Source: Fistulifera solaris (lineage: Eukaryota; Bacillariophyta; Bacillariophyceae; Naviculales; Stauroneidaceae). From it: a DNA stretch of 64,000 bases. The stretch spans positions 420,001-484,000 of the forward strand of contig AP026132.1 in NCBI GenBank assembly GCA_030295235.1, in the 5' to 3' direction. Positions 5,826-33,400 of this stretch are shown piece by piece (the stretch's first letter is position 1; each line of letters begins with the position of its first letter). The notes below the pieces were generated by a model that did not search any database, was not told where the DNA came from, and was given only the letters and a program-made list of their open reading frames with translations. The position numbers and the translations under genes are program-made.

Positions 5826-8800
5826 TTAATCCTCCACCAGGGCTACGCCGCTGGCCGCTTTGCTCTTCTCCACCATCGCCCTGAATAAGCCATCTTCTTT
5901 CTCCAATAGCTTTTCGGGGGTATCAAACTCAGCAATGTTGCCATTGTCCAGAACCAACACTCGATCACTGTCCATGATTGTGTTCAAGCGATGCGCGATA
6001 GTGAGAACCGTAGCATCCCTAAAGTTTTCTCGGATCATGGTCTGAATGTGAGCGTCGGTGGCATTGTCAATGCTTGCCGTGGCCTCGTCCATGACAAGAA
6101 TCTTCGGTTTGCGCAGCAAAGCGCGAGCGATGCAGAGCAATTGTCTCTGTCCTTGGGAAAAGTTTTCACCTCCTTCGGAAACAAGTTCATCGAGCCCACT
6201 GGGTAGTTCTTGGATAACAGTATCCATTTGAACCTTCTTCAACACTTCCCATAGCTCTTCGGTAGATGCAGATTTGAATGGGTCGAGATTGTATCGGACA
6301 GTGTTCGAGAAAATAATTGGGTCTTGAGGAATGATTGAAAGATTCAGACGAAGCGTCGACGTTCCTATTTCCCTGACATTGAGGTCGTCAATTATAATAG
6401 CCCCACCATCCTCCTCAAGCTCCGTAATTCGAAACAGAGATATCATAAGGCTGCTCTTTCCGCTTCCTGTACGACCACAGACTCCAATCTTCTCGCTCCC
6501 TTTCACTTGTAAAGAAATGTTCTTCAAAACAAGCGGTCCGTCGCGGTATCGCATAGATGCTCCTCGAAACTCAATATTACCTTTCGTCGGCCATTCAGAA
6601 GGTGCGGGGTCCACATCAGGAATGAATTCTGGCGCTTCAGGTTGTACTTGGTTTGTGTAAAACAATACACGCTCTACTGAGTTCATCTGTGCCTCAAGCG
6701 TCGCAATCATCTTGACACCATGTTTGAGAAAGTTCGTGACTTCAATGCTGTACGAGAGAGCGAGTCCTAGCCAACCAGCGGGAATGAAGCTGCTGGAGTA
6801 TGTGGCGACTGCGAGGCCACCGATGAACGCTCCGATGAAGCCACCAAGGATGTCTAATCTCAAGCTCAGCCACGAGCTGACGAGTTGTATAAGAATGTAA
6901 GAGGCATTCATTGTGTCAAATGAATGTTTGCACTGCTCAAAGAATCGTGTTTCTTCTCCATATGCACGAATCGTATTCGTGCCAGACAAGGTCTGAGAGA
7001 AGTCAGCAAAAATAGGAGAATTTGCAATGCTGTTGATTCTCTGAAGTTCCGTCGATGTCTTGCGAAACCATTTTTGGATTACGTAGTAACAATAGCTGAT
7101 CGGTACAAGTGGCACGAGAAAGGTCCCTCGCGTTGCAGCGATGATCGCCGCGATGGCACCCAACACGTTAAAAAGTGTAGAGATGCCCTGAGAAAGCGTT
7201 TGAGTCAACTCAAGATCGATCTTGTCCATATCAGCAGCAAACCGATTCAGCACACGTCCGGTGGGGGTAACATCAAAAAGGATACAGGCGCCCTAAGAAT
7301 GCTTTCCGTTAGACCGTCATGGAGGATTTTAGATGCAGCCAAGCGGTGCACCGCGATTAAAAGGGAACGGACGGTTAATCCGATGACGCCAATCAAGCCG
7401 AAGACGGCATAAATCGCAACGTAATAATTTGTTTCACTTGTGCTGAGCCCGCCCTCGTCACTAGCGGCTTCGGCCCAAAAAGCTAACCAAAAACCAGCCA
7501 TAACTTCTGCACCACGACCGAATGCTTGAACAAGTAAAACCATAAAGGCAACAACAAGTCCACCGACTCTGGCGTAGTGCATGTAGGCTGAACCCGCGAC
7601 GCTTCCTTCTTCGCGTTCCTCATCTTTGACTAATTTTTTGCCATTCTTCTGAAGTTGTATTTGATCCTCGCCTTTCTTCTCTGGTATTTGGGCTTTGGCA
7701 CTTGATTTCTCAACTTTCTTTTCCGCCTCTTCCTCGTTCGATTCCGTTACTTTTATTTTTGATACGTCAATGGCACCTGCAAAGTCGACGCCTTTGGCCA
7801 CTAGCTCCTCGTATGAACCATGATGTTGAATGGTCCCTTTTCCATGACGATCACCTTGTCACATCGTGCTAGTAAGTGCACATGATGAGTAACTATCATT
7901 CTTGTCGTCCCCTTGCTTACAGAGCCTGTAATTGCCTTTGAGAAAATCCATTCACCGACGTGAGAATCAACTGCGGAGAGAGGATCGTCCATAAGAACAA
8001 TTTTAGTTTCCTTCGAATACATAGCGCGGGCAAGAGAAACTCGAGCTTTCTGTCCACCTGACAGGTTTATCCCTCTCTCCCCGATTTCTGTCATATCTCC
8101 AGCAGGAAGGACTGCAAGATCATCTCGAAGCGCACAGGCATTTATAATTTCCTCGTATCGTTCCTGATCAAACTCTCGGCCAAACAAAATGTTTCCTCTT
8201 AAAGTGTCGTTTACGACCCAAGGTGTTTGGGAGCAATAAGACACAAAACCGTCTCTTTTAGCGCCGGCGCGCGGCATATACACTTTGGAATCATGGATCG
8301 GTTCCAGCTCTCCCAAGATAGCAGACAAGAAACTGGACTTTCCGCTACCGACCGTCCCTACAATTGCCACCAAGCTGCCAGACTCTACATGGCAATTGAT
8401 TTCACGTAGCGTAATCACAGGTACTTTAGTGGTTGCTTCGGTGTTTTCGCTCGCTTTACTACCTTCACTTTTGTGGCTGTGTTCGCTTGATGATATTTCG
8501 TCGTCCCCTTTCTTTCCTCTCTTGGGCTTCTTCTCTTTCTTCGGCTTTTCGTCCTGAATTGGCCGTACTGGACCAGCCTCAGGGTCAACCCAGCTGAAAG
8601 TTCCGTTCCGTATCGTAATACTTCCGCAAACAGTTTCCGACTCCGAAGCATTCGAAGGAGGATTTGGCTCCACGTATTCGGTTAGCTCAGGTAAATCCAG
8701 GTATCGCTCAAGGCGAGATAACGAAATCTTGCTTTGAATATATTGCAGAAGACCCATTGGCAAGAATGCGAAAGGGAAGCGCATCATGTTGAAGAGAGCG

Positions 8801-10183
8801 ACCGTCGTAAAAGCGGTGGAGGCTGTAAGAGGCTCATCTTGGATTGCAACATAAGTAACAAAGACCAAGACGGGTTGAATGAGAGGCGCCGCCATGAGAA
8901 TCAACGAGAATCCTATCGCCGACGTGTAGGCCAATCGGGTAAGCGCTTTGAGCTCGTTGCCACGAAGTTCGCTCACTTCCTTTCCGAAAGGACGCTCCCA
9001 TGCATAGAACTTAATGATTCGGATTCCCGACAGAATCTCGTTCATCATTTTGACGCGCAAGTCGGAGTATTTCAAAACTTCGCGGCGTTGCTTTGATACG
9101 ATCGAGAATACGACTGTGTTGATGGGCATCAAAAGCACCATGAAACCAACACCCACCCATGTAGCATTACCAACCTAGAGAGCAGTTACTTGTAATAAGA
9201 CAAAGGAGCTCTCGCACTGTAGAATGCAATCATTTCCGGTTACGTACCTGTTGATAAATCAGCGCCAAGGCCAAAACGATCTGAATCGGAGCCACCATAG
9301 TGAACCCAATGAACTGTAAGAATCGCTGCAGCTGTGCAGTATCATTCGACATCATGTTAACGACCTGCCCCGTGGATGTTTTCGCACGACCAGCCGCCGA
9401 AACTCGTACCGCCTTGCGATAGAGCATGGTCGAAACCGCGGTCCGCACAAACACCGCCGCGTGACTCATAATGGTAAGATGTCTGGTTTGAAGTAACGAA
9501 ATCACGAATGGCAGTACCCCCAACGCCGCCACTTGAATCCAAGGGTGCTCAATACTGTCAATCGGTCCCAGTGGCTCTCCCGATTCGAAGAATGTCACAA
9601 GATTGTTGAGAATGAGAACGGGCACGAAACCCAGCAGCGCAGAAATGACATAATACAAGATGGCGACGAACAGCGTCCACTTTCCGTATCCCGTCGCCAG
9701 TGCCGCCGCAATGCTGGGATCTTTTAGTTCCAGCGGTTTGACTTTGTTGCGCTCTTCTTCCGTTCTGCACTTGGCCAACTTCGCTTCGTGTTTTTGTTTC
9801 AATTTCTTGTTAATAGCAGCCGCTTTGACCGACTGCACTTCCCACGCTTCCATGGCGACTCGGTACGCTTTCTCGGCGCGGTCATTTTGCGAAGGAACTC
9901 CAATGTCTTCGGCGTCGAGTACTTTGTGCGAACCGAGACTGAGGAGCGGATTGAGAAAGTAAAGGAGCCATTGCGAAACGAAACCGGCTTGATCTTCTAA
10001 ACTTTTGTCCCATACACCCAGTTCTTTGGCGGATGCTACCTTTCGACCTCCGCCGCAACATAGCAAATCGGAGAAGCAGGTTCTCTGGACGACCGGGTTC
10101 GCGTCGGTCGGAGACGATACCTTGTTCTCATCCGTCGAACCGGAGGAATTGGTGTCGGGTGGGGAGTCTTCGCTTTTGCACAT
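5826..10183 (-). CDS. ABCC/MRP-type full ABC transporter
   Basis: A full transporter of about 1,428 residues with order TMD1-NBD1-TMD2-NBD2 and no extra TMD0. Exon 1 is 10183-9248; a clear 73-nt intron (9247-9175, GTACGT..CTCTAG) joins ..IYQQ to VGNAT... NBD1 has Walker [10 protein letters not shown] (about residue 590), signature [14 protein letters not shown] and Walker [17 protein letters not shown]2 has GRTGSGKSS (about 1215), signature FSQGQRQLL and [20 protein letters not shown] members export glutathione conjugates, organic anions and metal chelates, often into the vacuole. Two one-base losses break the frame: near 7833 after NBD1 (MEKG | TIQHHG continuation) and in an A-run at 7275-7279 in TMD2 (APVSF | FDVTPTG). 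Both sides align seamlessly with the family, so these look like sequence errors. It is head-to-head with the APS reductase gene. Confidence 0.92.
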
Positions 10184-10711
10184 GATGAGTCTGTTGTCTA
10201 ATAGCTTTGCTAATGTCTTTAGTAATCAAAAATGCAAGTAGCATGCCTTCGTAACGAAGACACTAATAGTATTGTGATTGCAATGATGGAATGACAATAA
10301 GAAAGAGTCAGCCGAGAGAAGACCAAGGAAAATCGGGTGATGCGATTTTCGTCGTCAGAAAAGTCTTTCCCTTGCATTCTCGAAGCCTCGATGTCATTGA
10401 AACGTACATACGGACAGATCATGAGAAATGGAACAAAAACGTCAACCATTGTCCGACGTCATAAACGACAGACCGGTATTGAATTTGCACTTCTTGATTA
10501 CCGCTCCGTCGCTTCTTTTCTGTACTCATTTTATCACACTCAACTTGCCGCCGATTTCCACAGCCGCTCATTTTCGTTTCTTCAAGGTTCCTCCGATCGC
10601 TTCGCGCGTCCGCGTTCCAACTTGCGCGTCACTTTTCGTCTGCAACCAAAATCCTTCATCGGACATTTGATAGCATCGTTGTTGTTGTTGATCAATATTA
10701 TAGAATAGAAG
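10184..10711. promoter_or_regulatory. Divergent promoter region, ABCC gene / APS reductase gene
   Basis: 528 bp separate the two start codons, so both promoters must lie here. The half next to the APS reductase gene is pyrimidine-rich and has a short GTT repeat just before the ATG. I see no TATA-like or named element. Shared regulation of sulfur assimilation and conjugate export is possible but is only an inference from the arrangement. Confidence 0.45.
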
Positions 10712-12040
10712 ATGAAATTTGCTTCGTTGGTGCTCCTCTTGCCGTTGGCTTCCGCCTTTGTCGCCCCCAAGGCGGCTTTTCGGTCGATGACCCTCAAGGC
10801 GTTCGACCAAGAACAGTACATTGCCGAGAGCAAAGAAATGAGACTCAAACATTTGGAGGAGCAAGCCATGTTTGCTCTCAAAATTTCGTGCGAGAACTTT
10901 GATAATGCAGGTGAGTTTGAATTACTGGTTTATTGTGAATCTTCGAGCGCCGACCTCACATATTTCCCAGTATTTCCGAATGCCATGATTGCGGGTGATG
11001 TCGTAATCACGGACTTGTTGGGTCGCATGGGATACTTGAAGAATGGAAAGGCCAAAATCATGGTCGTTGATACCTTCCACCTTTTCCCGGAAACGATGGA
11101 ATTTTTGAAAGTCCTCGAAAAGAAGTACGAATTCAAAGCCGAGATTTTCTGTGCCGACGGCATTCCGGTCGGTGACAAGGCGGCCTTTGACAAGCGCTAC
11201 GGAGCGGATTTGTGGAAGGAAGATATTGATGAGTACGATCGAGTCTGCAAGGTGGAACCCTTCCAGCGTGGGTTGAAGACTTTGAATACCAACTGCATGA
11301 TCAACGGCCGCACTCGTTGGCAGGGATTCGAGCGTGCTTGGATCGATTTGTTCGAAAATGCTCCCATCGGAGGAGGACTCGCCAAGTGCAATCCCCTGGC
11401 GTACTGGACCTTCGAGGACACCTTTGAATACATTGCCAAGTACAAAGTTCCTTACCATCCTCTTCACGAGAAGGGTTACCCCAGTATTGGTGATGCGAAA
11501 GATACTATCCCCGTCCCACAGGATGGATCGGTCAAGTTTGTCAACTACGAATGGGTCGGTGACAAGACCGTGTGGTGCGAGTACGCCAAGGAGCGCGTGG
11601 GACGCTTCGTTGGTTTGCAAAATAAGGATGGTTCGACCAAAACCGAATGCGGCATTCATGTGGACGGAGCGGAACGCACGTGGGATCGCGATTTGTGGGA
11701 GTCGGACAAGAGCAAGGCCAAGAAGCTCTCCAGTACCGATGAAGCCTTGGAAATCAAAAAGTCCGGCAAGCCCTCGGTTGTTGTGGTGTATGCTCCTTGG
11801 TGCCAGTTCTCTCAGGCCATGGAAGACGAATACGAAAAGTTTGCTGTCGCCATGGCCGGCGAGATGGATGTTTACACATTGCGAGGAGATGAAGACCGTG
11901 AATTCGTCATGGAAAACCTCAACACCAACTCCTTCCCTACTGTCAATGTTATCAAAGCGGATGGAACTGCGGTCAAGTACGAATCCGAAGTTCGAACTGT
12001 TGAAGCTTTCAGCAAGTTTGTGAAAGAGACTTTGGCATAA
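10712..12040 (+). CDS. Plastid adenylyl-sulfate reductase (APR-B type) with thioredoxin-like domain
   Basis: The enzyme reduces adenylyl sulfate to sulfite in plastid sulfate assimilation. The N-terminus is a signal peptide ending in ASAFVAP, the diatom plastid-import signature. A 60-nt intron (10911-10970, GTGAGT..TTCCCAG) is in frame and stop-free, so unspliced sequence reads through; the spliced product is about 422 residues. The reductase domain has the VDTFHLFPET segment and the catalytic ECGIH near residue 290. It lacks the paired-Cys motifs that bind the [4Fe-4S] cluster in typical plant APR, which matches the cluster-free APR-B type described from Physcomitrella and diatoms. The C-terminal domain is thioredoxin-like, but its site is WCQFS rather than WCxxC (about residue 343). 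The downstream tail is complete. Confidence 0.93.
   Translation: MKFASLVLLLPLASAFVAPKAAFRSMTLKAFDQEQYIAESKEMRLKHLEEQAMFALKISCENFDNAGEFELLVYCESSSADLTYFPVFPNAMIAGDVVITDLLGRMGYLKNGKAKIMVVDTFHLFPETMEFLKVLEKKYEFKAEIFCADGIPVGDKAAFDKRYGADLWKEDIDEYDRVCKVEPFQRGLKTLNTNCMINGRTRWQGFERAWIDLFENAPIGGGLAKCNPLAYWTFEDTFEYIAKYKVPYHPLHEKGYPSIGDAKDTIPVPQDGSVKFVNYEWVGDKTVWCEYAKERVGRFVGLQNKDGSTKTECGIHVDGAERTWDRDLWESDKSKAKKLSSTDEALEIKKSGKPSVVVVYAPWCQFSQAMEDEYEKFAVAMAGEMDVYTLRGDEDREFVMENLNTNSFPTVNVIKADGTAVKYESEVRTVEAFSKFVKETLA
10911..10970 (+). other. Short in-frame intron in the APS reductase gene
   Basis: 60 nt with GTGAGT donor and TTTCCCAG acceptor. Removing it joins DNA to VFPNAMIAG, the expected family sequence. 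Its length is a multiple of three and it has no stop codon, so an unspliced transcript would encode 20 extra residues before the catalytic core. Confidence 0.85.
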
Positions 12041-22043: not shown

Positions 22044-23143
22044 TGCTTGTTTATTGTTTGACTTTTTCTGTCCAAATGCAAAAGCTAAATTTGAAATGAG
22101 GGGCTTTGCTTTTTTCTTCCGTTTTTTTCATGTTGATCGCTTCCATTATTTTCGACGACCAGTTAAGAGTCATTTCCTTATTTCTTTACGATTAACCAAA
22201 TGCCAGTTTGACGTTGACTATGGTCTGACGTGTACGACAAAGAGCAAACAGCGTTCATCTTTACGATCGATGGCATATAGACTTCGGAATACCGAATGCT
22301 GCTGGCCTTGTACACCTCTGTATCGAATAACGAATACCTGGCATGTAAAAACCGTTAAACTATGTTCTACGTTATGACGAAAGACCTCTTAACTCAGTAA
22401 GAGAGTGGACGCTGACATAGTGCGCCTCAGTTATCAATTGTAAGTTCACACGTCTTAGTACAGTACATCCTAGAGTGTAATTTGTGAAACTTTTCCCTTT
22501 TCGCTGGTTAACTCTGGGCTCTGGGCTCTAATAAAGTACTGTGTATCGAGGAATGCTTCAAGGGCAAGCGGCATTCCGGCATTGCCATAGCATCTCAGTA
22601 CTAGTAGTAGAGGTTGAGGAGTTGAGGAGTCAAATTCGTAGGCAATAGTGGACAAGAAAATTAAAAATCTTATCGACAGTACAGCAATGATAGGAAAGAA
22701 CGCACAGACAAGTTTTAAAGTTGAACCGATGACCGTGACGTAAGACTTGAGTCTTCAGTCCCGTCTTTTCTTTCGCTAAGAGCCTCGAGACCTCGAGATT
22801 TTAGAGCCTAAATTTCGGCTTTACTTGTACAGGGTACAGTTACAGTATCCGAACTTCGGGCGTGAAGGAGGCTCTTCATCTACTGTACCAGGTACAGTAG
22901 AGATCGACACGTAGGAATCGTTTGTTCACATTTTGGTCCTGTTTGCTGCGTCACCTTGTCGTCTGTACTTTAACCGCCCTGACAAGAAGATGACGGTAGC
23001 GACAAAAGCGACGCGGCTGGAATCTCCCTCCGCTCGCTTCTGTCTGATCTTTCTTATCAACACTCTTGAAAAAGAATTTAAATTAAGAGGCTACTGGTAC
23101 TATCATCTAGCATTATTTTTTCCTTGTGATGATATTCGAAAAA
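22044..23143. promoter_or_regulatory. Divergent intergenic region with GTACAG palindromes
   Basis: 1.1 kb between the VWD gene and the lipid megasynthase gene. I see no convincing gene. It holds a 9-bp inverted repeat with one central base at 22881-22899 (TACTGTACC-A-GGTACAGTA), nearby GTACAGGGTACAGTTACAG near 22828, and a TAGTACAGTACATCC word near 22457. The AT-rich part near 23060-23120 precedes the start codon of the megasynthase. Confidence 0.45.
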
Positions 23144-26100
23144 ATGTCTGTCTCCGGTGAAAACGTAGTGGAAAACGATAAGTTGGCGTCAACTTTTGAA
23201 ACCGTTTCTCGCTGGGTCTCTGCGTCGAACGAAAACCCTAACGACGATGATACTTCGACCGACACCAAGTTGAAACTTTACGGACTTTTCAAGCGCGTCA
23301 AAAATGGACCCTGTGAAACGGAACCGCCGCCGGTGTACCGCGTCAAGGCTTACGCTAAGCACAAGGCATGGATGGAATGCTCGGACCTCTCGAAATTAGA
23401 GGCCATGCAAAATTATATTGATTTGGTGGCGCAGCAGACACAAAACACAGTTGGTCGAGAAGCGCAACGACTTGTCGATCAACTGCGAAGCGAAGAAAGC
23501 CGCGTTTCTCCACAAGTTGTGAATGACCAGAGTAAAGCAGCGTTGGCAAGCTCGGGAGCGAGCTCTGTGGAAAAGAAGACGTTTACCGAAACGTCGCGTG
23601 GCAATGTTGGCATCGTTCCGAGGGGAAGCTTGGATATTTCTTACAGCGACCTTTTGTATGCAGCCACGCACTGTCTTTTTTCGTCTCTCAATTTTGTTCC
23701 GAATCCTCGACACTACGAACAAGAAATCATTGATTTGTGGCAGCAAAGTTTGGGGAAGAATGTGGGTGTAATACCTGGATATTCTGCTAGGACTCTTCTC
23801 GATCTGTATTTGCGCACGAAACGATATCCTCTGGGATCGCAAATTATCATTTGTCCGCCTATTACGGTTCCCGGAATCGAAGAAGTCCTACGACATCATC
23901 AAATCGAATTCGTCCCTGTTGATATCCCAGAATACGACGGAGACAGTCCTTTCATATCGGTAGATACGAATGCACTGGAACACGCGATAACAGACAAAAC
24001 GGTCGCCATCATGGTCGTTCATATCTTTGGAATGCTAACGGCGAGCTCGGAAGATATGCAAAGGATACACACGATTTGTAAACGTCGCGGTGTGGAATTA
24101 ATGGAAGACTGTGCGGAGTGCTTTGGTGGGCTTTCTGAGACGGAAAACGATACCAGCACTTACCTCGGTAGTCCACATGCGGATCTTGTTCTTTTCTCTT
24201 TCGGTTTCATCAAAACGGCGACTGCCTTGGGCGGTGGCGTGGCTATCGTGCGAGACAAAGGAACGCATGAATCGATGAAGCGTCTGTTATCCGCTTGCTA
24301 CCTCGATCGCCAGTCCCAAGCAGTATTCTTCTCCAGGGTATGCAAAGCATTTCTGATCCGACTAGTGTCGGACCATCCCGTCATTTATGGACTTTTGGTC
24401 GTATTCATTCAAAACTTTGGCTTCGACTTCGATACTTTCGCTACAGCGCTTCTTCGTGGTTTCAAAAGCTCAACTGAAATGAGTGGTGACTACGTGACCC
24501 AGATAAGATTGATGCCGTGTTCTAGCTTGTTTGCTTTGTTGCTTCGCCGCATAAAGCAGAGAAACTGCACAGCTGAGCTCATTTCAGCGCGTCGACAGCA
24601 TTGCAGACGTTTGGTCGACGTTCTCCAGCATCAAGACGATGTGAGAGTCCCACGCTTTCTGGTTCCTTCCAACTTTCACGCATATTGGCTTTTCCCTGTA
24701 CTTGCTAACAATGTGCAAGATCTCTGTGTATATTTGACGAACCAGGGAATAGATGCCACGCAAGGTGCATCACAGCTCCGTTGCGTCGGGGCGTCCGAGA
24801 AATGTCCGCGCGCTTACAGTTTGATGAAACGAATTATGTATTTGCCCATGTCCCATGAGAGGCATTGGATATCAACACACTGGATCAACAATCTACCACA
24901 ATTCATAAACAATTTTGGGACCGGGGTAGGAATGAAGACCGTGAAAACAAAAAACTTTGGTTCTTCATTTCCTGTATGGGTTGCCTTTTCATTTATTTTC
25001 TTCATATACTATGGCTTCAGCACTTTGCTGGTAACAGTTTGCCCCATACTATTCTTTGTCATGGTGTGTGCCATTGCTACTGCGATCCTCGTGACGCTGT
25101 TTTTACGTTTGAGGATGGCCTCTTTTTACCTCGAAAGTTCCAACGCTTTCGCGAAATATTCATACTTGTTCGATTTGGGGTCTAAGCAACCTTTAAGAGT
25201 GAATAATACTCTGGATGATCTGAAATTTGTCGACGTCGTCGATGCAACTCTTCTGATTTCGATTCTGTCGACACGGAACGCTCCGTTTTATTAACAGGTG
25301 TTACCGGTTTTGTTGGTTCAACGATTCTCCGTGAACTGCTCTGCCGCCGAAGACAATACTCAATTAAACGAATCTATGTCATAGTTCGGCCGAAGGGGGA
25401 CCTTTCCGCCGAAGAGAGAATACATCGCTTGCTCGAAAACCCAATATTTTCTTGTGTGCCCACAGATGACCTATTTTCAGCCATTGTCGTCATCCCGGGT
25501 GACATCAGCCACGCAAACGCTGGTCTGGCCGCGGAAAGCCTTGAACAGCTAAAAAAAGAACGTTTCATTACGCATGTTTACAATTGTGCTGCAACTGTGA
25601 GCTTTACTCAATCATTGCAGGAAGCGGCTGAATCCAATATTACGTCGGCACTGAACGTCCAACGTCTAGCAGCTGAAATGCCATACCAAGAAGTCATTTT
25701 TGTTCATATCAGCACTGCTTTCGTTCATGGTGATCAAAAAGGAACAATAGATAACCCCTTGGGCAACAATCTATTTGACATGAAACCTTACGACCCTGTC
25801 GACGTGTACAAGTCGATGTGTGGAACCCAATACTATGCAACAAAAGCTATGAGTGATTTGGGTTTCTCCAACGCCTACCAGCTTAGCAAGTGCGTAGCTG
25901 AGCATCTCCTCCAGAATTGCTCTCTAAACACGATAATTATACGTCCAAGCATTGTCGGTCCTGCATTTTGTGAATCGTTGAAAGGATGGGCTGGATCCAG
26001 ACCCTCAACAATAACTGCTGCCCCGTGTCTCTATTTCTCGTATCAATGGAATATATGGTCCTTCGGTGACCATGCAGTGCCTTGCATCCCGGTCGATGTT

Positions 26101-29100
26101 CTTGCTCGATTTGTTGCTAACAAAACTATTTGCCACCGACTGTCATCCTCCGAATTAGAAGAAGATCGATCATTATCGTCGGATGAAGACTTTGAGAAGG
26201 TTTCAATCTGTGCTGGAAGATCGAAGCCTAGATACACGATACATGTTGCCGCATGGGATGTGTCGTCTAAAGCCAAGTCGCAGTTCACCTGGCTTCAGTT
26301 TGCTGTTGCAATTACTCAGACTGGTGTGATTCTTGGTTATTTCAGTCGCTCGACGGCATATCTAGGCCTTTGGGTTGCGACGCGTGTTCTCCCGAGAAAT
26401 TTAACGGCGTCACGCTTTAAGCAATTGCATGAGCTTTTTGTGCAAAGCTCTTTCAGCGCACTGCTTGCTTTGCATACTTTTTGTGGCTATTCCAAGAACC
26501 AATGTGGAAGGTTTCGTCGGTTTCTCGATCTACCCGTTCTTTTCTTTCCTTTCATGAATTCATCGTTCTGTTTTTCTTCCAACTTGATACCTCCTCCGGA
26601 TTTTGATGGTGAACGATATATGATGATCTGCCTATCAAGTGCGTCGCGCTTTTTACAGCGGGAACGGGTAGAAAATGCGATCCTGAAGGGGGCAGACATG
26701 CAAGTCGCAGGGAATGAACAGTGCTCTTGGATTCAAGCTTGGTTTTGGGCTTTCACACAGCCAAAGGGTTCGATCGCTATCAGGGCGGTGGCCGCTTTGT
26801 TGAACACACTTTTATGTTCAATATTCAGTAGTGTGATTGTTGATTTGGGGAGTATATGCGACGTTCTACGTGACCTGAAAAAGACTCAGAACACAAGGAT
26901 AATCCTAGCTCCGACACACCGATCATTTTTCGACTTCTTGCTACTGAGTTATGTATGCTTCGCGCTTCCAGAATTGGGTGTTGATGTACCTTTTATCGTT
27001 TCTGCGGATAGTTTTGAGCGGCTCCCCGTGCTTGGAATTGTGGCGAAACTTCTTGGTGCGGTCTTTGTAAGACGAAATCGTGGTCGCATTGACCCTTCAC
27101 TCGAAGCGAGTTTGAATGAGTTACCAGCAAGTTCAGTCATTGAAGTCTTCATTGAGGGCACTAGAAGTCGAGACAGGAGATTTGTGCGCCCTAAAACCGG
27201 TGTCCTCCGCTGCCTATCGGCAAAGAGTCAGAATTATTGCATTATCCCGATAACAATATCCTATGAAAGGATACCAGAGCAGTGTTCCTTAGTCGAGGAA
27301 ATCCGGAATGCTTCGCCTAATGATTTAAGTACCCAGGGTTTGTTCTCATGGGCATATGTAAGTGTCGTTGCCTGTGGCAATGTGTCATCGTCGTCGCTAA
27401 CACCCCATACCCTACGCACCCGTTCCACAGGCGGCCTTCAGCGGAAAAGTTCGGCTTGGCAAAGCTTGGCTCTCGGCTTGCGACGCAGTTACACTTTCCA
27501 GCACAGAGGATAAGAATATTGAGGATTTAGTGATCGAGGTTCAACGACGACAGGCATCTCAGGTGCTGCTATCTTCATACCATGTATCAGCCCTTGCTCA
27601 TCTTCTTGAACTTACCCCGTCAATTGTCAAGGAAGCTCTCTCCGAGCTGGGTTGTAGGTTGTGGTTGCGGGAAGAAGGTTATACTCCTTCGATTCCTTCT
27701 GATCAGGACGAACTCTGGACCGTAGCCCTTCAGGCTAGTGCGTGCCTTGCACCATTATTTTATGAGTCAAGATCCCTATGGGCCCAGTGGCTCTTTTGCA
27801 CGTTGAAGACACTGTGGACAAAACAATTGTTGATAAAACTTCTGTTTCCGCTGTGACACTGGCTTTGCAGCGTCACTTTGACGAGGCAACGGAGTGCGTG
27901 AAAGATGCTTTAGCGCATCTTAAAACGAACGGTTTTCCAAACCCCGAAGCCAATCATGTTCTTCACTTTATATCAACGAAGAAGAGGTGTCCAGTAGCTT
28001 TGGCTAAAGCTGCAATATCACACGAGTTTGGCATTAAGTTCCAGACTGACGAAAACGCTCCTCCGTTTCTCACGAAAATACCGAAGATGAATCAAGCAAG
28101 TCTTTCCTCGGGAGAGCGACTAGGCTTTTGGGGATTTAGCGACTCATTTTTTGTCATCAAGCCATATGAAAGCGGCGGAGCTTACGTCACAATGGCTGGA
28201 AATAGATATTCCTTTGCTGGAAGACAGATCGGTAAACTTATTCCATTTCTCCAACGAGAAACGGGGTTATCAATCGACCTCCTTAATGAAGCATTCCAAA
28301 ATGTTGCAACTGCCAGTGGATCTTCTTTGTCTGCTCTTTCTTCAGAAAACAAAGTATTCTTGGAGAAAATTTCCCGGAAAGTGTCGTACGAAGACAGCGA
28401 GCTAATTCGACATGGAACTGGTCACTCATTGGCGGACATTTGGGACGTACGCAACGGATCTGTTGGCCGAGTCCCTGATGCTGTTGTGTGGCCTTCCTCC
28501 GAAGGTCAAGTGGTAGAACTTATTCGCATGGCCCGATCCCGAAATTGGTGTTTGATTCCTTTTGGTGGGGGTACAAGTGTGTCTCAAGCAACAAAGTGCC
28601 CAAGTATCGAAGTTGACCCTAGACCAATAATATCTGTCGACATGACCGAAATGCGAAGAGTTTTGGCTGTTGACGAAGAAAATGAAGTCGCACATGTCGA
28701 GTGTGGAATTACTGGGAAAGAGCTTGTCCAAGAGATGAAGCGGCTTGGATATACAATAGGTCACCAACCAGACAGCTACGAATTTAGCACGCTTGGAGGC
28801 TGGATCGCCACGAAAGCCAGCGGCATGAAGAGAAACAAGTATGGGAATATTGAAGACATTGTTATTTCAGTGCGTGTTGCTGGTCCAGAAGGAATTATGG
28901 CCCATGGTAACCGAGGGGGTGATTTTCCGGTATGGGGACGTGAAGCTACGGGCTTGGAACTACTTAGCGTCGTCCTTGGTTCCGAGGGGTGTCTTGGAAT
29001 TATTACGAGTGCCGTGATACGGATTTGGCCGCTATCAAAAGTGGAAGATTATGACAGCGTTTTGCTACCCTCTTTTGATCACGGGCTATCTTTTGTTCGC

Positions 29101-29871
29101 GACGTACAAAGATTGGGGTCTTGTTGCCCAGCCAGTATTCGACTCCTGGACAACGATCACTTTCGATTAGGACGGGCTTTGCGAGCCAATCCGGTTTCCA
29201 TGCTACAATCTTTGCGACAAAGTGCTGGTGAATTTTACTTGAAACGACAAGACTTTGACTTCATGTCAACTGTATGTACAACCATCCTTTATGAAGGATC
29301 ACGCGAAGAAGTTGATTCACAAAAGCAAATGTTGAAGAAACTGATAAGTCGTCATGGTGGTTTTAGTTTGGGTGCAGCTGTGGGAGAACAAGGCTACAAT
29401 TTTACCTTTCTCATCGCTTATCTTCGCGATTTTGCGCTCACGTACAATTTTCTAGGAGACTCATTTGAGAGCTTTGTGCCATGGTCGAAAATTAGAACTG
29501 TGGTCGATTCTGTAAAAGATCGCATACGAAGGGAGCATGCAAAACGGTGTCTACCTGGATCTCCTTTCATTGGATGCCGTGTGACACAGTTGTACCACGA
29601 GGGTGCTTGTTTGTATTTTTACTTCTCGATGAGCAGTGCAAACGTTACAAACCCGAGTCGCGTCTTCATGGATATCGAGCATGCTGCCCGGGAAGAGATT
29701 CTACGACTTGGTGGCTCGCTCAGCCATCATCATGGGATCGGCAAAGCGCGTTCCGCTTTTCTCGATGACATTGACTCGCCAGAATGGATCAATGCAAAGC
29801 AAAGCGTCAAACGGGCTCTCGACCCAGACAACATATTTGGGGCACAAAATTGTGGCTTTTCTGCGCGTTAA
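23144..29871 (+). CDS. Multidomain ether-lipid synthase: ACBP + DegT aminotransferase + TM + FAR + DHAP acyltransferase + alkyl-DHAP synthase
   Basis: Predicted about 2,218 residues. Start chosen at ATG 23144 (A at -3); an in-frame ATG lies at 23129. Order: acyl-CoA-binding domain (17-100; LYGLFKR, HKAWMEC, EAMQNYID); DegT/DnrJ/EryC1 aminotransferase (about 162-580; EDCAECFGG, PLP Lys in FSFGFIKTATALGGG); two or so membrane spans (about 609-660); fatty-acyl-CoA reductase (LLTGVTGFVG near 717, YQLSK near 911, then FAR_C); GNPAT-like acyltransferase (THRSFFD near 1259, FIEGTRSR near 1336, IIPITISYERIPE); alkyl-DHAP synthase with FAD domain (PDAVVWPS, PFGGGTSVS, STLGGW.ATKASGM, SLSHHHGIGK near 2170). 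A 73-nt intron (27358-27430) lies after the acyltransferase core. One-base losses occur near 25250-25290 (before FAR) and near 27775; no stop-free gap separates the parts, so one polypeptide is the best model. Confidence 0.87.
27358..27430 (+). other. Intron in the ether-lipid synthase gene
   Basis: 73 nt, GTAAGTGTCG..GTTCCACAG. Splicing joins ..FSWAY to AAFSGKVRLGKAW, restoring an open frame that continues to the next domain; unspliced sequence leads to a stop at about 27513. Confidence 0.85.
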
Positions 29872-30418: not shown

Positions 30419-33400
30419 ATGCTTGGCTCTAAGACTGTAAGTGTTATCTGGCGCGAATCCGTATCAATTATAGTGAGAGAACCTCAACTAATGTCTGTCT
30501 CGTTTGCCTCAGCCTCCTCGACGTCAAGACGGCCGTCGTTTCGGAACTCTTATTTCGCACAACTCTGTCACTCCGAAAAGAAAGTGAAAGCGAAACTCTC
30601 ACATCGCAAAGCACCCAGACGAGATCATCTTCCTGATTATGTTTCGTACTCCGTCGTCTTCTCACCGGGGCCCATCGGTTTAGAATTGGACGAAGACAGT
30701 CACTCTGCCATTCGCGTGCAGAAGTTTGTTGACGGTGGCTTTCAGAATCCAGGAGCGGCACGAAAGTCGGGAATGATTCAGCCCGGAGATGAGGTCATTG
30801 CAGTGAACGGGCAACCGGTATCATCGTATGAACAGACTCTTGAGCTACTACAAGAGCAGACTGTTACACGAGAAATGACATTCAGACGTCCATGTAATAA
30901 GTCGATCATGAGTTCTCCTCCTAAAACGACGGGTCGAATCGGTCGCACCATTCAGGTCACTCCAAATCCTTCTTTGATGTCGTTGAGAGCCGTCGAAAGT
31001 GAGCCTCGTAAAATCGCTTCCGAAAGCAACAGAGCGGATAATCTACTTTCGCCTGCCCATGTCAAGGCACTTCCGCAGCAAAGTCGAGTCGTATTTGGCA
31101 AGAATAAACGAGCTGCCCTGCAAAGATTGTTGATACGGTCGCCGGCGTCGTACCGCTACGAAATTATGGTATCGGATCTATGCAACGCAGCACCCTCGAA
31201 TCGTCGCGATCGGACGGCAATAAAGAGTTGCGGTCGGCATTCGAGCAAAAGTATGATTTGCTGCAAGAATTAAGTCAAGCACGGATTGCGCTGCATCAGC
31301 AACAGGAATTGATTGATCAGCAAAATTTTCATGTCAAAGCGGAGAGACAGCGAATGGAAGAGGAGCTGATAATATCTCGCAGAGAGAAACAAATGGCCGA
31401 GGCTTCTCTGGCAGCCTACCGGAACACCCTTCAAAAACAGCAGACTGATGAGATCGAACAATGGAAGTTGGCGTTTGAAGATGTTTGTGCTCAAAATGAT
31501 CGAATGCGACAGGAGATGACTCTCATGGAGGGAATGGGACCGGGAAGTGAACGTCGAGATCACGAAGCATCTACACTCCACCTCTCCTCATTTGAAAACA
31601 CAAAAGTTCAGTATTTCGAGGCATCGGATTCTTTGTTGCAGCGAGATGTAGAGATCTACCAAGCTAGGTTAGAGGCAAGCGAACGCCAGCTATATCAAAT
31701 GAACGAAAAGATGGAAGAGCAAGAAAATATTCACAACCGAGAAGTCGCACGCTTGAATGACGTTTTATCAAATAAGATCAGAGCGTTTGACGAAGAAAGG
31801 TCCCGGATGGCTTTGGAAATACGTAGTATGCAGGGATCCCACGAAGCAGAGAAGCGACGAACTTGTGAGGACAAAGAGGCGCTGAAGAATAATCTGCATG
31901 ATCTACTTGCTTCTCTACGAGAGGACAGGGAGAGAGCCGAAGCTACTTACCAATCCAGAATCGAAGCCTTGGAAAATCAGCTCGAGACTCGAATGTCTTT
32001 GTTGGACGAACGAAATGACGAGATAAGCCGTTTGACGGATAATATGCAAAGCACTGAGCAGACAATCAGAGATCTTGAAAAGAATCTTGAGTTAGCAGAA
32101 GCAGAGAAGTTGCAGCAGCAGAATTCGATAAATGCTCTTCATAAGGAACTGATCATTTTGCGTGATACCGCTTCAGTAAATCAAGAGAAGTATCAACAAG
32201 AGCTGAATGAATTGTCTGAGAAAACTAAGAAGCAAAGCGAGAGGATCATATCTCAGTCCGAAGAAGCTACCGCAACTGCAAGGCGCCTTCACGACCTAGA
32301 AAATAAGTTGAACGAGACGATGACGAAGAAGGTCGACTGTGAGAAGAATCTTGCTGCTGCTTCGGCAAGGGTAGGGCAACTCGAAGAGGAACTACTCACG
32401 TGGCCATCTCGAGAGGCTATGGTTCGTAAGGAGGAAGAAGAACGCTTTGAAGTCCTGCTTGGAAGAGAAGGCAATTTTTGAAGCCAATCTTGCGGAGGCT
32501 AGAGGAGAGGCCGCAGAGATCGCACAAAAATGCACATCCCTTGAGTCTTCGAGGTCGATTTCCCAGCATGAAATTGTGTCTCTTCGACGTCTAAACGAGG
32601 AGTTGACAGACCAAATGGAAGAGCTTCGCAAAGCTTTAGAGGGTACAGAGGTACAGCTTTCTAAAAAAACGAGTAGAGGTTTCAAAGCGGGACGATGAGT
32701 TGCAGGATGTTCGAGACTCATTGTTTCGAGTCGAGGAGGAACTGACTAGCTGCAAATCAAGCTTGGAAGCAGCACATTCACAGTATTCTGATTTGAGTGC
32801 CCTCTTCTCGAAAACGAACGAATCTTATACTACTACCAGAGAAGAAATGAATTCCAAAATCGTGGAGCTGACCGAAGAATGCTCCTCTCTTCGTTCTCAA
32901 AAAGCGACAATGGAGACCATTCTCAGGTCAATTCGCAAGAGTGCATCTGAATCAGAAGATCGGTGCTCCCGACTGCGCTTAGAGTTACAGCGAGAGCGAG
33001 AGGACGCACTTGCCAAAGCGAAAGTGTCAGAACAAACGGTTGCTCTATCTCAAGAAGCTCTGTCTTCAGTCGAAGCGAAGTACTATGGATTGCTTCAGGA
33101 AAAGTCGCGTTTAGAAGAGCAGCTATCCACTATCAAGGAAGTCAACAGTTTACTCGAAGATGAGGTAAAATGCTTACAAAAGAAGAATGCACACACAGAG
33201 AGTGAAATTCAGAGTTGGAGGGCGGCGTACTATGCCGAGCGCCAGGAACTTGAGACAAACCTTGAATCCGCACAGGAGAATTGCAAGATACTTTCCAAAT
33301 CGTTGAAAGATGCAGAGTTGGAGGCGAGTAAATTGAAGAAAGAATTGAAAGAGCAGAACGAAATCTTCTTGGATCAAAAACAGCGCTACGAAGCGGATAT

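Follow-up and report, generated by a model that had tools for sequence, protein, structure and literature searches.

Does a single gene of the diatom Fistulifera solaris encode the enzymes that start ether-lipid synthesis? The question is raised by positions 23144-29871, forward strand, of a 64,000-nucleotide stretch of contig AP026132.1 (the window; positions 420,001 to 484,000, assembly GCA_030295235.1). An original prediction, made from the letters alone, had read here a continuous order of acyl-CoA-binding domain (ACBP), DegT-family aminotransferase, membrane spans, fatty-acyl-CoA reductase (FAR), GNPAT-like acyltransferase and alkyl-dihydroxyacetone phosphate synthase (AGPS), and had proposed a self-contained assembly line for alkyl-dihydroxyacetone phosphate (alkyl-DHAP). 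Our analysis confirmed that 23144-29871 is one gene encoding all of these domains. Judged from its sequence and its relatives, the product of the locus is very probably a single membrane-anchored multienzyme for the first steps of ether-lipid synthesis.

Six domains in one gene

A Pfam search of the locus found six domains in the stated order, all on the + strand and with E-values of about 1e-18 to 1e-46, so that the predicted domain order and coordinates proved right. These E-values, together with the occurrence of the same domain set in relatives, exclude a chance match. The features of the gene are as follows.

23144-29871, +, whole gene, ACBP-DegT-linker-FAR-GNPAT-AGPS, about 2,218 residues if read through
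23195-23428, +, ACBP (PF00887, E 1.2e-18)
23621-24913, +, DegT-family pyridoxal phosphate (PLP) aminotransferase domain with the catalytic residues Lys362 and Asp327, boundaries approximate (DegT_DnrJ_EryC1, E 6.1e-21)
24965-25108, +, hydrophobic linker with at least one membrane span predicted from hydropathy
25219-25291, +, first one-base frame break, near 25250 (overlap of frames), sequence continuous in the homoeolog and in database homologue P0002
25291-26112, +, FAR domain (NAD_binding_4) with motifs TGVTGFVG and YQLSK (PF07993, E 7e-46)
26600-27798, +, GNPAT-like acyltransferase including its C-terminal region, boundaries approximate (PF01553, E 9.4e-19)
27358-27430, +, intron of 73 bases, GTAAGT...CACAG, phase 0, splice sites identical in the homoeolog
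27766-27853, +, second one-base frame break, near 27798 (overlap of frames), sequence continuous in P0001, P0112 and the homoeolog
28078-29868, +, AGPS domain, best structure match PDB 4bby (E 5.3e-136)
28474-28896, +, FAD_binding_4 within AGPS (Pfam, E 1.2e-34)
29044-29841, +, FAD-oxidase_C within AGPS (Pfam, E 1.6e-32)

The start at 23144 coincides with that of the homologues P0001 and P0002; another in-frame ATG lies upstream at 23129. FAR is followed in the same chain by the PF01553 acyltransferase, with both active sites kept. The Pfam core of the acyltransferase spans 26887-27261, and the GNPAT region is interrupted by the intron. No match to the Sterile domain (PF03015) was found in the FAR-GNPAT piece at E 1, and a search of the genome for this domain also gave none, with controls equally silent, which makes that second search uninformative. 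AGPS is identified by FAD_binding_4 with FAD-oxidase_C and by its end-to-end similarity to solved AGPS, the alignment with 4bby covering residues 104-694 of a 700-residue piece. The DegT domain has the aminotransferase fold with the PLP-binding Lys and the Asp.

Frame breaks and the homoeologous copy

The predicted continuous gene of 6.7 kb is one gene, but it is not a single open frame in the present assembly, where stop-to-stop frames run at 23111-25291, 25219-27510, 27401-27853 and 27766-29868. The second of the three changes of frame is a real intron, conserved in the homoeolog. According to an excerpt of PMC5935921, F. solaris is allopolyploid and its genes occur as homoeologous pairs. 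The second copy of this gene, the homoeolog on contig C16, is continuous across both one-base breaks, and direct alignment with the window copy showed a one-base length difference at each. Among the database records, P0002 is 99.6-100% identical to the window copy and continuous across the first break, and P0001, named as F. solaris, is 99-100% identical to the C16 homoeolog over most pieces; since these last two are nearly the same sequence, they amount to a single witness. At other places in this assembly the homoeolog is itself broken, and P0001 is continuous across those breaks. In the window as a whole, 10 of the 12 overlapping pairs of long frames step by -1 (pairs picked mechanically among frames of at least 120 codons; one of the two other pairs is the intron of this gene). 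Given these prevailing -1 steps and the continuity of the homoeolog and the other records, both one-base breaks look like deletions left in the long-read assembly.

The breaks, and those that the homoeolog carries at other places, are also what would be expected if a pseudogene, or a group of two or three genes, had been taken for one gene. Breaks do lie near 25290 and 27500, where the original prediction had said that genuine stops would speak against it, but relatives read through them. Splicing offers no substitute at the first break, since each of the 12 possible GT/GC-AG introns cuts into or deletes the NADPH motif; at the second, 63 introns are possible that frame alone cannot separate, and relatives read through here as well. 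Moreover, the FAR frame has no ATG ahead of its NADPH motif, the homoeolog and other records are continuous across the window breaks as P0001 is across those of the homoeolog, and full-length relatives occur in many diatoms. We therefore consider separate genes or a pseudogene to be a very remote prospect. The window copy itself may be a null allele, which is conceivable, though intact copies exist.

The -1 steps suggest leftover one-base deletions more widely, and other split genes of the window need careful reading. At 30419-32481 two overlapping frames of 284 and 433 residues resemble one gene with a frame break; by eye they show a PDZ-like start and a coiled-coil remainder.

Catalytic residues are conserved

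We counted key residues in a family alignment of the relatives. In ACBP, the presumed acyl-CoA contact residues Y51 (58/58), K55 (58/58) and K77 (60/60) are invariant, as are Y917 and K921 of FAR (both 70/70). The HxxxxD and EGTRS motifs of the acyltransferase keep H1264, D1269, E1343, G1344, R1346 and S1347 in all 70 sequences and T1345 in 26 of the 70. The Arg, Tyr and His residues of AGPS, which we take to be its catalytic triad, are represented by R1981 (51/51), Y2132 (44/44), H2176 (46/48), H2177 (46/46) and H2178 (44/46). Lys362, Asp327, His298 and Ser357 of DegT are each present in 64/64 members of the fused family; when bacterial members are included, the Lys, Asp and Ser are found in 96/96 and the His in 90/96. 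The homoeolog keeps 14 of the 14 key positions examined.

Elsewhere in the genome, there is a FAR-type paralogue pair at C21:401600-403213 and C22:372222-373945 (loci L007, L008, L010 and L011). The tail of the C21 paralogue is acyltransferase-like and has lost the catalytic His (STRKSVLDF versus THRSFFDF), with no Pfam acyltransferase match. The genome also has two matches to PF10520, of plasmanyl desaturase or FAD4 type (C21:815784-816293 and C22:761043-761552), and these proteins could act downstream on ether lipids.

The fused protein in other diatoms

The original prediction had proposed a domain search and a search for the same order in other stramenopiles; a single protein with DegT, FAR, acyltransferase and AGPS was found in ten named diatom species, F. 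solaris included. DegT, FAR, acyltransferase and AGPS occur in one protein in 43 of 71 database matches, of which 35 also have ACBP and 8 lack an ACBP match (the search scored the 7,985 candidates sharing most words and is not a census). The named species are F. solaris, Nitzschia inconspicua, Cyclotella atomus, Seminavis robusta, Thalassiosira profunda, T. oceanica, Cyclotella cf. meneghiniana, Cyclostephanos tholiformis, Discostella pseudostelligera and Skeletonema marinoi. An MMETSP transcript record of 2287 residues labelled complete (P0014) is among the 43. Database records of the fused protein bear names such as alkyldihydroxyacetonephosphate synthase.

In the 51.7-Mb genome, searched exon by exon with the best candidates scored, AGPS was found at E 1e-5 only in this gene and its homoeolog. 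With only these two homoeologous places, any ether lipid in the F. solaris cell should depend on this gene.

A probable membrane site

At the linker, 1 to 3 hydrophobic windows were found in 69/69 aligned sequences, the query included. The type 1 peroxisomal targeting signal (PTS1; [SAC][KRH][LM]) is absent from 45 of 45 C-termini of the family, some of which may come from records with wrong ends. Nor was a nonapeptide like the type 2 signal found within the N-terminal 60 residues of these 45 proteins or of the query. The hydrophobic linker and the lack of a visible PTS1 suggest that the protein is membrane-anchored, probably at a membrane such as the endoplasmic reticulum. Its predicted action is that of FARAT, the FAR-acyltransferase fusion, and we do not class it as a peroxisomal FARAT.

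DegT belongs to a subfamily of its own

DegT is strictly conserved, and no other part of the protein is so little explained or so interesting; the original prediction named the domain and gave it no function. It forms its own subfamily, with the motif SFGxIKTATALGGG followed by a hydrophobic helical stretch; ArnB, WecE and TlmJ of the DegT/DnrJ/EryC1/StrS family are only 14-22% identical to the domain in the window. The fold is nearest to that of enzymes acting on keto-sugars, although a fold alone shows no function. In a tree of 96 rows, arbitrarily rooted on L088 and with 15 fused rows taken as diatom, 14 of these fall into a single clade (support 1.0), which P0076 and P0078 join (0.908) before the divergent full-length P0059 (0.348). 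All these rows sit beside Pseudanabaena-type rows (0.948).

Bacterial genomes carry stand-alone members of this subfamily. At locus L044, genes for an acyltransferase (PlsC, 7654-8277), AGPS (8274-10004) and DegT (10001-11182) overlap their neighbours by four bases; a FAR-like gene of this genome lies on a different contig, outside the overlapping set. PlsY adjoins DegT in five loci, one from Thioglobus and four from Pseudanabaena/Phormidium records, and is a possible partner of DegT in making amino-glycerolipids in the cyanobacteria and the Thioglobus record. The PlsY genes overlapping or adjoining DegT are those of L068, L070, L071 (9343-10014; 10001), L052 (11199-11822) and L078 (9196-9882). 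An acyltransferase gene also adjoins the DegT gene at L077. In the planctomycete loci L015, L017, L020, L021, L048 and L074, a gene for an FAD oxidase, nearest to DprE1 in L074, lies directly upstream of DegT; this may be an oxidise-then-aminate pair.

Bacterial AGPS and FARAT genes

Further loci were drawn from the phylum of genome G029, whose locus L077 is labelled Lujinxingiaceae. At L157, L158 and L160, the last cut by a contig end, an AGPS gene adjoins a gene for a FAR-acyltransferase fusion, and at L159 it adjoins a FAR gene. AGPS of these four loci is 40-43% identical to that of the window; the three fusions are 28% identical to the window protein, and those of L157 and L158 have the same active-site motifs as the diatom protein. 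No DegT or ACBP match was found at L157, L158 or L160. At L157 and L158 an extended short-chain dehydrogenase/reductase gene follows AGPS and FARAT, and we read L157, L158 and L160 as carrying a bacterial ether-lipid gene set. The bacterial genes are separate, with AGPS first, whereas the diatom gene encodes a single chain in which the order of the two is changed; by sequence it looks like the bacterial AGPS/FARAT set with DegT and ACBP added, fused and reordered. If the ether-lipid reading is right, the finding also has a bearing on the origin of the eukaryotic ether-lipid enzymes, as AGPS adjoins a FAR-acyltransferase fusion in some bacterial genomes.

A proposed route and its alternatives

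The reactions of FAR, GNPAT and AGPS are the established chemistry of these families. In the diatom protein, ACBP would bind acyl-CoA, part of which the FAR domain would reduce to fatty alcohol in an NADPH-dependent step, and the GNPAT domain would acylate DHAP; the AGPS domain would then exchange the acyl for the alkyl chain, using FAD with no net redox change, to give alkyl-DHAP. Membrane site, channelling and the role of ACBP are what we infer for this arrangement. The fusion suggests that diatoms make ether lipids, possibly of an unknown amino kind. Of the predicted assembly line, one polypeptide with conserved catalytic residues in many diatoms is borne out, and the making of ether lipids in the cell is what we infer from it. 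Feeding by the protein's own ACBP, also part of that prediction, would be a putative role; 8 of the 43 fused proteins have no ACBP match.

DegT, if an active PLP aminotransferase, could aminate alkyl-DHAP (or acyl-DHAP) at its sn-2 ketone, an assignment that we put forward tentatively. The product would be 1-O-alkyl-2-amino-2-deoxyglycerol 3-phosphate, a lipid like a sphingoid base, and amination would replace, or run beside, the usual reduction to alkyl-glycerol-3-phosphate. We favour alkyl-DHAP because of the fusion itself, the PlsC-AGPS-DegT set of L044, the PlsY-DegT pairs and the known transaminases of DHAP. The ether bond would matter here, since from an ester at this position the acyl group could pass to the newly formed amine. 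The full proposal is a new diatom pathway, in which an all-in-one enzyme forms alkyl-DHAP and aminates it to an ether analogue of a sphingoid base, and in which the same DegT subfamily, paired with PlsY, PlsC plus AGPS, or a DprE1-like oxidase, makes related amino-glycerolipids in bacteria; taken as a whole it is possible, if rather unlikely.

DegT might instead transaminate free DHAP to serinol phosphate, as a side product or as a control of DHAP supply, a reaction that the literature excerpts ascribe to RtxA and Cj1437. Serinol phosphate, however, has no ketone of the kind that the AGPS mechanism needs, and the PlsY-DegT pairs hint at a lipid substrate while leaving room for DHAP; we regard this role as improbable. 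To much the same degree we doubt that DegT is catalytically dead, a scaffold or sensor in a protein that only starts ether lipids. Modules do decay, as the acyltransferase-like region of the C21 FAR paralogue shows by the loss of its catalytic His, but the four DegT residues counted above are invariant in the fused family, and nearly so with the bacterial members added. Amination of the fatty aldehyde from the FAR domain, with part of the output a long-chain amine, is more doubtful still: the two domains are neighbours in the chain, and FAR-type NAD_binding_4 domains are generally known to pass via an aldehyde, yet the overlapping L044 set has an acyltransferase, AGPS and DegT without FAR, and the DegT fold is nearest to keto-sugar enzymes, by itself no functional proof.

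Several observations weigh against amination of alkyl-DHAP, or against the ether-lipid reading as a whole. Among the bacterial genomes with this DegT, 32 of 36 have no AGPS at E 1e-30 (the check covered 36 of 80 loci). Of 282 genomes in the G029 phylum, 13 have DegT (E 1e-40) and 269 do not; AGPS (E 1e-80) is present in 6 of the former and 72 of the latter, a co-occurrence that is not significant (one-sided Fisher p 0.12; 0.21 minus the seed genome). DegT adjoins AGPS at 1 of 42 AGPS loci, with flanks of up to 1.5 kb and some wider, and was beside AGPS in none of 7 wider regions; one further scan gave the L044 locus alone. The neighbours of bacterial DegT genes are mixed: in 102 frames at 66 of 77 loci (three of the 80 were dropped for a stop inside the match), the commonest was a vertically kept gene with DUF255 and Thioredoxin_7 (8), followed at 5 each by PlsY, FAD_binding_4, GST_C_2, GST_N_2 and Glyco_hydro_88; L015, one of the dropped loci, also has a FAD_binding_4 neighbour. 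Two annotated diatom proteins of about 1,480 residues, P0086 of Amphora coffeaeformis and P0092 of Cylindrotheca fusiformis, have ACBP, DegT, FAR and acyltransferase and no AGPS match; some diatoms may lack the AGPS fusion, or the gene models may cut these two short. The two frame breaks of the window copy belong on the same side.

Finally, no chemical report of diatom alkyl ether glycerolipids was found in the literature searched; the original prediction had stated that ether lipids are not a recognised feature of diatoms. In the excerpts seen, a Skeletonema transcriptome paper lists phospholipase-type genes under the annotation category 'ether lipid metabolism' (PMC7281586), the one main-text account of lipid chemistry concerns betaine lipids whose head group is ether-linked (PMC12387633), and words for ether lipids or plasmalogens stand in references only (PMC5516116, PMC5063337, PMC3853752, PMC8100218, PMC6723447, PMC9959416).

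If the ether-lipid reading is true, organisms responsible for much of ocean photosynthesis possess their own ether-lipid pathway, one not found described for diatoms in the literature searched, and it uses one membrane-anchored protein in place of several peroxisomal ones; a PLP aminotransferase tied to alkyl-DHAP would point to a new class of membrane lipids. The gene is a single target with which to test directly whether diatoms make ether lipids.

Comparison with known systems

The original prediction had set the protein against myxobacterial ElbD and called it an independent solution. Six matches (P0133, P0142, P0143, P0160, P0164 and P0165), which we take to be ElbD-type proteins of myxobacteria, share with the diatom protein FAR and acyltransferase in one chain, at 28-34% identity over just 17-18% of the query. 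They have an AMP-binding domain, with a carrier domain in five of the six, and no AGPS or DegT match; the diatom protein has no Pfam match to AMP-ligase or carrier domains.

Stand-alone AGPS (PDB 4bby, 2uuu) has the same whole domain with the Arg, Tyr and His triad; 4bby is peroxisomal, whereas the diatom AGPS is the C-terminal domain of a protein of about 2,220 residues. An excerpt of PMC9244630 describes FAR and AGPS of the cryptophyte Guillardia as distinct proteins with PTS1-like ends. No paper on a multidomain AGPS in diatoms was found in the literature searched. The FAR-acyltransferase fusion is already known, and the addition of AGPS, ACBP and DegT to it appears unreported in the papers searched. 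The closest likeness is to FARAT, which in Dictyostelium and Tetrahymena starts ether-lipid synthesis and feeds AGPS (excerpts of PMC7375469 and PMC13256971); compared by published description, both have FAR and then a GNPAT-like acyltransferase in one chain. The FARAT fusions and the bacterial AGPS/FARAT loci mean that the diatom solution is not wholly separate. Dictyostelium FARAT ends in a PTS1 (SKL), is peroxisomal and works with a separate AGPS (excerpt of PMC7375469), whereas the diatom protein has AGPS joined to it and no PTS1 was seen. To the shared core the diatom protein adds ACBP and DegT, which do not figure in the parts of the FARAT descriptions seen, together with the hydrophobic linker and AGPS.

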